DNA from: Pseudomonadota bacterium
GTDB lineage: Bacteria; Bdellovibrionota; FAC87; UBA2466
DNA: 56,033 nt
Assembly (NCBI GenBank): GCA_009927165.1
Contig: RFNO01000104.1
Span: 1-56,033 of the forward strand
Direction of reading: 5' to 3'
Numbering within the stretch: position 1 is the first letter of the stretch; every line of letters begins with the position of its first letter. A program made the position numbers and the translations under genes. Below are positions 28,964 to 54,048 of this stretch, one piece after another. The notes beneath the pieces were generated by a model. It was not told the origin of the DNA and did no database searches. It was given only the letters and a program-made list of their open reading frames with translations.

Positions 28964-29063
28964 CAATTGTTAATTGTTTCCGCTCTTCCCGGGCGAGCTC
29001 CCCCTCATTTTAGTGCACACTGAATCTATCAATCCTAATTTTCAATAAAAAATGGGGGTCTTC

Positions 29064-29570
29064 ATGCGAAACTTTATTTTCGCTGTTAGTCTGTTTTTCA
29101 TCAATACAGTCAGCACTCCAGTATGGGCAGTGAGTGCTTTCGAACTGCCCTGGATGAATGCGAGCTCACAAGGTTCTATCAATTATAAAAGTGCTGATTA
29201 TCAGGGGGCCGTTTGGGTGGTAGAAGCTTTTTTCTTGGGATGTCCTTACTGCAACGACAATGCTCCTCGAGTAAATGACTTGCAGAACTATTTTGGAAAT
29301 GACGAACGAGTTCAGATATTAGATGTGGGGATCGACAAAGGGGATTCTTCGTACGCAGAATGGATTCAACGACATCAACCGAATCATCCTGTTCTCAAAG
29401 ATGCTTCGCGCATGCTGATTCGCCAACTGGGAACCAGTACTTATCCATCCACTTATGTGATTGATCACAAACTTAATGTGGTCTTTAAATCGTCAGGAGT
29501 TTGGTCCGCCAAAACGGAGCAAGCTATTAAAGATGCAGTAGAAAAGGCTCTCTTAAAAATTAAGAATTAG
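29064..29570 (+). CDS. Secreted thioredoxin-fold protein with CPYC motif (TlpA-like)
   Basis: The 168-residue protein has a signal peptide (ending PVWAVS) and a redox-like domain with C60-P-Y-C63 in FLGCPYCNDN and a cis-proline in TSTYPSTYVID. The layout fits TlpA/ResA-type thioredoxin-fold proteins that reduce or isomerise thiols in the periplasm. CPYC is more common in glutaredoxins, so the redox potential may be unusual. ATG 29064 is preferred over ATG 29052 because the GGGGG between them can serve as ribosome site and gives a proper signal peptide. It converges with the HNH gene; the two ends overlap by 11 bases. Confidence 0.8.
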   Translation: MRNFIFAVSLFFINTVSTPVWAVSAFELPWMNASSQGSINYKSADYQGAVWVVEAFFLGCPYCNDNAPRVNDLQNYFGNDERVQILDVGIDKGDSSYAEWIQRHQPNHPVLKDASRMLIRQLGTSTYPSTYVIDHKLNVVFKSSGVWSAKTEQAIKDAVEKALLKIKN

Positions 29571-52309: not shown

Positions 52310-53191
52310 TCAATAAAATCCGTATCGAACGTTCAATGACGCTGTTCGAGTAATGGGTTGGTTGATGCCAAAGCCATCCCATGGCACGGAACACTCGACT
52401 CCGGCTCCTACAGAGGTAAATTGTGAAATAAAGTAATTTGCCGAAGTAAACACAGCGAGTCCCCGACTAGCTGAGCCGGGAATAATATGGCCTTCCATTT
52501 CTTTTTCAAATCCCCATGTCTGAGAACTTCCAAGTCCCCAGTTGAACCGCCGGCTAAAGGCATAGCTAAGCGATTCTGTTAGACTAAGCTGGTTTTCTCT
52601 TTCAGAGCGTCCTTTGGAGCCGCCGATCTGAGGACTCCAAGTAGCATCAATATTGCCGAGCCATCCAAAATAATCCTTCCTAAAGCTTAACCCCACCAGT
52701 GGCTCCCACATTCCATTGCCAGTTCCAGGTTTGAAGACTCCATTTTCTTTTATTTCCGAAAGTCCAGTAGGTAACTTGGAGCCAAGAACCAAGCTTACGG
52801 TTGGAAAAGGATCTTCCACAAAAAGACTCCTTAGGAGCGTCCAACGCAGGCCCAAGGTAATATCCCCTAAACTAGACCGACTTTGAGTAATCGCTCCGTA
52901 ATCCGTGGTTCGATAGATTATCGGGAACCGACCGAATGCTTCCCAGTTGGGGGAAAGTCGCCCTACCGTTGAGGCTTGAAGGGTTATATCGATTGGCCCT
53001 TTTCGACTAAAAGCCTCTCCTCTCGCATTATGCCATCCATAGCTCTCTTGAAAAGATGACACGAGTGAAAAGTCAAAGTTTTGTAATTCTTGGAGTGCTA
53101 AAAACGATTTTGGTCCTCCGCCACCACAACAAGCAGCCCCCCAAACCGAAAGGTCCAATAGAACGGCAATAAAAAATATAAACTTGCTCAT
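52310..53191 (-). CDS. Outer-membrane beta-barrel-like protein with N-terminal CCGGGG
   Basis: The 293-residue protein has a hydrophobic signal (FIFFIAVLLDLSVWGAA) directly followed by C21-C22-GGGG. The preceding residues (GAA-C) are not a good lipobox, so the vicinal cysteines may be a mature N-terminal metal site rather than a lipid anchor. The rest alternates amphipathic strands (GDITLGLRWTLL, TVSLVLGSKLPTG, TASLNVRYGFY) and ends in Y, as outer-membrane barrels do. It is the last gene of the NosL/lipoprotein/barrel operon, 3 bases after the lipoprotein stop. Transporter or copper-related pore is an inference from context. Confidence 0.65.
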   Translation of the reverse strand: MSKFIFFIAVLLDLSVWGAACCGGGGPKSFLALQELQNFDFSLVSSFQESYGWHNARGEAFSRKGPIDITLQASTVGRLSPNWEAFGRFPIIYRTTDYGAITQSRSSLGDITLGLRWTLLRSLFVEDPFPTVSLVLGSKLPTGLSEIKENGVFKPGTGNGMWEPLVGLSFRKDYFGWLGNIDATWSPQIGGSKGRSERENQLSLTESLSYAFSRRFNWGLGSSQTWGFEKEMEGHIIPGSASRGLAVFTSANYFISQFTSVGAGVECSVPWDGFGINQPITRTASLNVRYGFY

Positions 53192-53194
53192 GAC

Positions 53195-53629
53195 TTATTC
53201 CGCTACTTGATAATCAAAAGTAATTTCATCCACCGGCTTACCCGGTTCCTCGATTAGGATTTTTACTTCCCACCATCCGCCATGGACGATATCCAAATCG
53301 CCCTTCAATACTTTTCCATCAAACTCAACGGCCGATTCAAAAACCCCCATTTCAGGCATTTCTGGCATTCGATACTCAAACTTAAACGTTCTCGGACTGT
53401 TCTCTACCTCGGTAAGGTCAATCGAAAGCAAACGGTACTGAACCGTATTAGCTTCACCAGGAGAAAGTTCAGTTCTTAAGGACCTTGCTACAAATCTCTC
53501 GTTTAAAGAAACACGCACCAACTTGGACAGGGGCTCTTGGGCCTTCATTTCGTTTGAAGCTGCAGGTTGAGGCTTCAAGCTGCATCCGACCAATGTCCCC
53601 AGCAAAATCAAGACCATTCCTGCTTTCAT
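53195..53629 (-). CDS. Lipoprotein with methionine-rich MPxMPxM motif (YtkA/FixH/CopC-like domain)
   Basis: The 144-residue product has a clean lipobox (LVGC, C16) and a small beta-sandwich-like domain. The domain contains MPEMPEMG at 88-95, then GDLDIVHGGWWEVKILI, the usual plan of YtkA-like domains. Such Met clusters bind Cu(I) in periplasmic copper proteins. The ATG overlaps the NosL-like stop by 4 bases, so the two are coupled. I infer a periplasm-facing metal-binding lipoprotein. Confidence 0.7.
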   Translation of the reverse strand: MKAGMVLILLGTLVGCSLKPQPAASNEMKAQEPLSKLVRVSLNERFVARSLRTELSPGEANTVQYRLLSIDLTEVENSPRTFKFEYRMPEMPEMGVFESAVEFDGKVLKGDLDIVHGGWWEVKILIEEPGKPVDEITFDYQVAE

Positions 53630-54048
53630 CGAAATTCCTTTCTCAGAGCTTCGAATCCCTGAATTAGTTTTCCATCGCCTAAACGCTTTTGGTGTTTTTC
53701 CGCATCTTCTTTATTCGTAAAACCAATCACTGTGGGAGGCATTTCAAACTCTAGCTCTTTTAAGAGTTTTTCACTGCGAGCAATAAAAACGGCATCCGAA
53801 GCTGGAATCTTTTCTCCTGAACCATAATCAAAAACATAAACTTCACGCGTAGGTTTTCGTTTTAAGTACGAGTCAACACAAGCTAACGAGCAAAAGCGTC
53901 GCTCTTCTTGAGACTCCACCACCGTAAATTGGGTTTTTGACCCGGGCTTTACGTCCATACCACAAATAACACAGCGAACTCCGGCAAAGCTGAGCGCAGT
54001 CAACAATGCAAAGAAAAGCAGCCCCGATTTCTCGATCATTTTAAGCAT
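53626..54048 (-). CDS. NosL-like copper-binding protein
   Basis: The 140-residue product resembles NosL, the Cu(I)-binding lipoprotein of nitrous-oxide reductase maturation. It has CVICGM (C26, C29, M31), FCSLAC (C53, C57), GEKIPASDAVFIA and MPPTVIGFTNKEDAEK. The N-terminal hydrophobic segment (LLFFALLTALSFAGV) looks like a signal sequence; C26 could be lipidated but the lipobox is weak (GVRC). No nosZ is present, so it probably acts as a general copper chaperone together with the two downstream genes. Confidence 0.8.
   Translation of the reverse strand: MLKMIEKSGLLFFALLTALSFAGVRCVICGMDVKPGSKTQFTVVESQEERRFCSLACVDSYLKRKPTREVYVFDYGSGEKIPASDAVFIARSEKLLKELEFEMPPTVIGFTNKEDAEKHQKRLGDGKLIQGFEALRKEFR

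Follow-up and report, generated by a model that had tools for sequence, protein, structure and literature searches.

Three adjoining genes in a 56,033-nucleotide stretch of contig RFNO01000104.1 (the whole of which is referred to as the window) encode a NosL-like protein, a lipoprotein with a methionine motif, and an outer-membrane barrel, and we favor, with moderate confidence, the reading that they form a periplasm-to-outer-membrane Cu(I) relay with a cysteine-plugged channel at its end, most likely serving copper tolerance. That the trio handles copper in some way is the firmer part of this reading and is considered likely, while we infer the identity of the metal, its binding, the order of hand-over, and the direction of export. 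The trio is probably an undescribed copper-handling system, because the set recurs across the phylum, often beside known copper genes; no description of the trio or of such a module was found in the open-access literature searched. The original prediction had proposed a copper unit with a route from the periplasm to the outer membrane, and its copper-handling part gained support from gene co-occurrence, copper-gene neighbors, likeness to CrdA, and a conserved Cys-Cys or Cys-His pair, while the route itself may plausibly be drawn from the architecture of the three proteins.

The three coupled genes occupy positions 54048-52310 of the minus strand, as had been claimed, in the order NosL-like protein, lipoprotein, barrel. 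There is a 4-bp overlap between the stop of the NosL-like gene and the start of the lipoprotein gene, and 3 bp separate the latter from the barrel gene, so the three are probably co-transcribed. A PAP2 phosphatase gene lies 63 bp upstream on the same strand, and an AdoMet decarboxylase gene is located downstream in convergent orientation. Scans of the region around the trio yielded promoter-like matches that did not exceed those in shuffled sequence and terminator-like matches that fell mostly within genes. Elsewhere in the window, and unlinked to the trio, positions 29052-29570 encode a periplasmic thioredoxin-like protein (CPYC) with a weak score (22 bits) against the profile of the redoxins described below.

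The first gene (53626..54048, minus strand) encodes a NosL-like periplasmic protein of 140 aa, an assignment that held up: the Pfam NosL model PF05573 matched with 36.6 bits against a curated cut-off of 24, and the predicted CVICGM and FCSLAC motifs are present. The potential ligands comprise a CXXCXM motif (C26, C29, M31), a C-x3-C pair (C53, C57), and M103 in an M-P-P motif; C26, C29, M31, C53, C57, and the MPP motif with M103 were invariant among 10 homologues from units that include NosL. The N-terminus is a signal peptide lacking a clear lipobox, with no lipobox cysteine visible by eye (the region reads ...LSFAGVRC, and C26 belongs to CXXCXM). When the NosL profile was compared with the PDB, only sub-threshold ribosomal L24e/zinc-finger matches were returned. 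NosL has been reported to bind Cu(I) via its CXM motif (PMC6530538).

The second gene (53195..53629, minus strand) encodes a CrdA/YtkA-like lipoprotein of 144 aa with a lipobox (LVGC, Cys16) and the methionine motif MPEMPEMG at residues 88-95 in a predicted beta-sandwich domain, in agreement with the original description of a lipoprotein carrying this motif in a small beta domain. Against the YtkA model PF13115 the window protein alone scored 13.3 bits, below the cut-off of 25.9, but YtkA was matched by all 13 of 13 aligned relatives (E <= 1, best 9.5e-11) and was the sole family common to them. The lipoprotein profile matched Helicobacter pylori CrdA with an E value of 6e-13, Met motif aligned on Met motif (MPEMP), whereas a phmmer search of the PDB with the single window protein returned nothing, so that CrdA was recovered by the profile only. 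The AlphaFold model (pLDDT 80.6) had silver-bound H. pylori CrdA (9ll4, E 2.4e-4) as its first Foldseek match, and a sub-nanomolar affinity for Cu(I) is reported for the Met-rich site of CrdA (PMC9182242).

The third gene (52310..53191, minus strand) encodes a 293-aa protein containing SVWGAACCGGGG and ending in YGFY, for which no Pfam or NCBIfam match was obtained; PF13557, unmatched by the window barrel, was matched by only 2 of 70 homologues, and a tblastn search for the barrel on plasmids returned no match. The barrel-like character that had been proposed was confirmed at the level of a confident AlphaFold model (pLDDT 89.7) with 12 long strands, strand 1 beginning at residue 39, whose best PDB matches by Foldseek were FapF (5o67/5o68, E 5e-14) and the COG4313 channel 4rl8 (E 4e-11); by sequence, the barrel profile matched FapF with an E value of 2e-15. 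The predicted mature N-terminus lies 0-2 residues ahead of C21-C22-GGGG, and C21-C22 with the first part of the glycine run are encoded at approximately 53120..53131 on the minus strand, in what would be an N-terminal plug region. The segment carrying this motif (residues 21-38) is the counterpart of the N-terminal segment of COG4313 channels, whose structure shows the first ~14 residues folded inside the lumen at its periplasmic end and plugging it (PMC4493636). Residues 12-28 of the model had pLDDT values below 50, and because of this low confidence the position of the segment was taken by analogy.

Judged on sequence, no feature of the barrel family is better conserved than the N-terminal CC (rarely CH), and conservation of the CC motif is far beyond chance. 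Among the 71 barrels with a readable N-terminus, the pair directly following the signal peptide was CC in 67 and CH in four, with Gly nearly always next; in an alignment of 70 homologues (15-46% identity; alignment A4), C21 was one of two invariant columns and C22 was at least 90% conserved. The vicinal cysteines originally noticed in the window protein, where four glycines follow, correspond to this motif. Because the 71-barrel set had been collected with a profile that contains the motif, weaker homologues were examined separately. Those in operons with Met-motif lipoproteins kept either CC (for example SCCVSN and SCCGQS) or, in the distant homologues from G006, G010, and G013, CASC, so that every intact barrel read beside a Met-motif lipoprotein carried CC, CH, or CASC, and the barrels without the motif that would have spoken against the prediction did not appear in this context. 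Three weak matches outside such operons had no N-terminal CC, and a truncated barrel in G013 (L044/L177) had no Cys and adjoins a copper-type P-ATPase at a contig end, where the onward context is out of view. The possibility that the barrel cysteine serves as a lipoprotein anchor was rejected, since Pro, Ser, or Ala often precedes it with no Leu at -3, a pattern that does not make a lipobox.

Co-occurrence of the trio, which the original prediction had suggested examining, was strict. In a set of 59 relatives, 18 genomes contained the barrel and seven contained NosL; across 369 genomes of the phylum, which to judge from gene content and genome shapes is probably Bdellovibrionota-like, the profile of the NosL subgroup matched 11 genomes at E <= 3e-47 (next match, 8e-8), and in 10 of these 11 NosL lies within the three-gene unit. 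The remaining genome (G004) has the lipoprotein and barrel together with NosL on another contig. The order NosL, lipoprotein, barrel was read in G003, G016, G031, G050, G058, G093, G094, G359, and G365. The barrel profile itself matched 184 of the 369 genomes, and its usual partner, among approximately 60 loci retrieved, was not NosL but a redoxin/AhpC-type protein with an invariant CPC and a C-terminal GC. We refer to units with NosL, as in the window, as form B and to those with a redoxin-fold protein in its place as form A. The NosL of the original prediction is thus the partner in form B but a minority partner overall, a redoxin replacing it in most genomes. The lipoprotein motif of form A is MPxMGHGS or MxCCG instead of MPxMPxM, and a maximum-likelihood tree of 70 barrels separated a NosL clade (11 rows, 100/99) from a redoxin clade (59 rows, 100/99). 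Genomes with a complete form B show no additional barrel and hence no form A, the two matches in G050 being contig-end fragments; the two forms thus seem to be alternatives, as would be expected of equivalent solutions. Common to both would be Cu(I)-type ligands in three proteins of one operon, with the chaperone swapped for another thiol protein.

Two genomes of the window's own genus depart from this pattern. G001 and G002 have a lone NosL-clade CC barrel at the syntenic site, with neither NosL nor lipoprotein; there the distance between the PAP2 gene and the barrel gene is 46-47 bp, with nothing of the trio between them (L030:7687-9103, L002:1401-2872). Loss of NosL and the lipoprotein is the simplest reading, because the barrel lineage otherwise accompanies NosL, and the retention of the barrel with its CC in both genomes suggests that it can function without these partners. 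A complete redoxin operon is present elsewhere in G001 (L088), and G002 has a truncated second barrel of that kind at a contig end (L163); these might serve the lone barrel.

The fold and the redoxin partner also bear on whether copper is the substrate at all. The barrel is closest in fold to FapF and COG4313, so it could conduct hydrophobic molecules as COG4313-type channels do or export proteins in the manner of FapF, with its cysteines engaged in thiol-redox chemistry with the redoxin or NosL; the form-A redoxin has an invariant CPC, and the vicinal cysteines could form disulfides with it. We consider a non-copper substrate very unlikely, for the CH variant retains a metal ligand and not a dithiol, and such a function would leave unexplained both the MPxMPxM/MPxMGHG lipoproteins and the copper-gene neighbors.

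These neighbors, namely CsoR, CusABC, CopA, or CopC-CopD genes, adjoin the units of close relatives of the window's own. CsoR adjoins the unit in G016, G050, and G058 and lies 3.6 kb away in G003, where a copper-type ATPase is found 5 kb from the unit; CusC/CusB adjoin it in G050, G058, and G365, and CusA in G050 and G058. In G094 (L205:895-2558) the form-B operon continues on the same strand with a second YtkA-like gene, CopC (PF04234, 61.3 bits), and CopD (PF05425, 57.1 bits). Copper genes were present within 2.5 kb at 4 of 9 NosL loci versus 2 of 70 redoxin loci (Fisher p 0.001), a comparison biased by copper-gene models that were seeded from form-B loci and did not include CopC/CopD and by the inclusion of two loci of one genus. 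No copper gene adjoins the window unit itself, and searches of the window's genome for CsoR and HMA domains gave no match; a copper-type P-ATPase (TIGR01511, above cut-off) is encoded on another contig, which also carries oxidase genes. This ATPase (L202:1586-3640) has a CPC motif, no HMA match, and a CC (SEISCCTAP) near its N-terminus. A further set of genes recurs beside form B (L034:4281-7454, L037:11266-13648, L089:4789-7175, L205:4404-6833) and encodes a lipoprotein of ~220-235 aa, a TolC-like protein of ~400-435 aa (no Pfam match in the one tested), and a small lipoprotein of ~155 aa ('NEEEEIQ/KEDA'). Downstream of form B in G093, L089:1241-2455 encodes a Met-rich protein of 404 aa (MPLPMEGMHMKMLM) with no Pfam match.

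The direction of transport could also be inward. The barrel might import copper, for instance for a bacterium feeding on other cells, with the lipoprotein and chaperone carrying the metal onward into the cell; an uptake role has been suggested for relatives in COG4313 (PMC4493636), and incoming metal could be received by a CC at the periplasmic mouth. The CopC-CopD pair of G094 is compatible with either import or export, whereas the presence of CsoR and Cus efflux genes next to the unit speaks for copper excess, and we judge import to be quite unlikely.

The main rival is metallation of a cuproenzyme, for example at the CuA/CuB sites of cytochrome c oxidase, in place of export: the enzyme would be loaded by the YtkA-like lipoprotein together with NosL or, acting like Sco, the redoxin, and copper or small chelates would enter through the barrel. 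As had been predicted, neither nosZ nor an oxidase gene lies near the trio; a search of the window's genome gave no nosZ propeller match, and its one COX1 gene is on another contig. That genome does encode a heme-copper oxidase with a CuA subunit, and precedents exist in the YtkA-type protein CtaK, which works with Sco in CuA assembly in Bacillus subtilis (PMC13344008), and in canonical NosL, the Cu(I) chaperone that loads CuZ of nitrous oxide reductase (PMC6530538). In G183 (L129:1967-10751), a form-A operon is immediately followed by genes for an HMA-domain protein and a cytochrome c and by a nosZ-nosL-nosD-F-Y cluster, an adjacency in keeping with metallation. However, COX1 was present in all form-B genomes searched and adjoined the unit in none of the stretches read, form B was found instead with CsoR, Cus, and CopCD, and an outer-membrane channel would be unusual in oxidase assembly; metallation is accordingly regarded as unlikely.

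In the relay that we favor, the NosL-like protein would capture periplasmic Cu(I) via the thiols of CXXCXM and C-x3-C and its conserved Met, and the membrane-tethered CrdA-like lipoprotein would receive or store the metal in its MPxMPxM loop. The next acceptor of the copper would be the Cys-Cys (or Cys-His) pair, carried by the short, glycine-rich stretch that precedes barrel strand 1. By analogy with COG4313 channels, this stretch may lie at or in the periplasmic mouth, which would put a conserved thiol or thiol-imidazole where the outer-membrane channel opens; the metal would exit through the channel, or its binding would gate it. A broader proposal, which we put forward only tentatively, is that these FapF/COG4313-like barrels, with a conserved CC/CH metal site in the plug, represent a new class of metal channel in the outer membrane, one that is loaded by a dedicated lipoprotein and an interchangeable NosL or CPC redoxin and would provide a widespread, RND-independent copper exit in a predator-related phylum.

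To our knowledge, the passage of Cu(I) across the outer membrane by routes other than TolC-type tunnels is ill defined. With a Cu(I) chaperone, a Met-rich lipoprotein, and a channel whose plug bears metal ligands all encoded in one operon across a phylum, this outer-membrane step would become testable by point mutants; in addition, a barrel family lacking annotation gains a probable function, and two chaperone types, NosL and redoxin, are found to share one operon position.

Each component resembles part of a known system and differs from it. The window NosL shares with canonical NosL the PF05573 match, the CXXCXM motif of clade II NosL, and a second conserved Met (PMC6530538), but differs in the absence of nosZ from its genome, the lack of a clear lipobox, the extra C-x3-C pair, and MPP in place of the nos-type MG; window-type NosL is also clearly separate from the NosL of the nos cluster in G183. 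H. pylori CrdA, of the CrdAB-CzcBA copper resistance system, is the nearest solved fold and profile match of the lipoprotein, and Cus/Czc-type genes occur at some form-B loci, yet CrdA itself is without His or Cys (PMC9182242) and the window protein is a lipoprotein whose gene stands with those of NosL and a barrel, not with that of CrdB. The barrel has in common with the COG4313/PF13557 channels (Pput2725, 4RL8) and with FapF 12 strands, a similar length, and a short segment before strand 1; unlike the former it does not match PF13557, and the invariant N-terminal CC/CH-G of its family is not mentioned for Pput2725, while in contrast to FapF no amyloid subunit or fap genes came to notice when the ORFs surrounding the window unit and those of its relatives were read. 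Compared with the Cop/Pco and Cus systems, finally, the window unit lacks a CopA multicopper oxidase and CopB/PcoB, and its barrel is of another family, but the pairing of a periplasmic Met-rich protein with an outer-membrane protein for copper is shared, and CopC-CopD or CusABC adjoin some form-B units.
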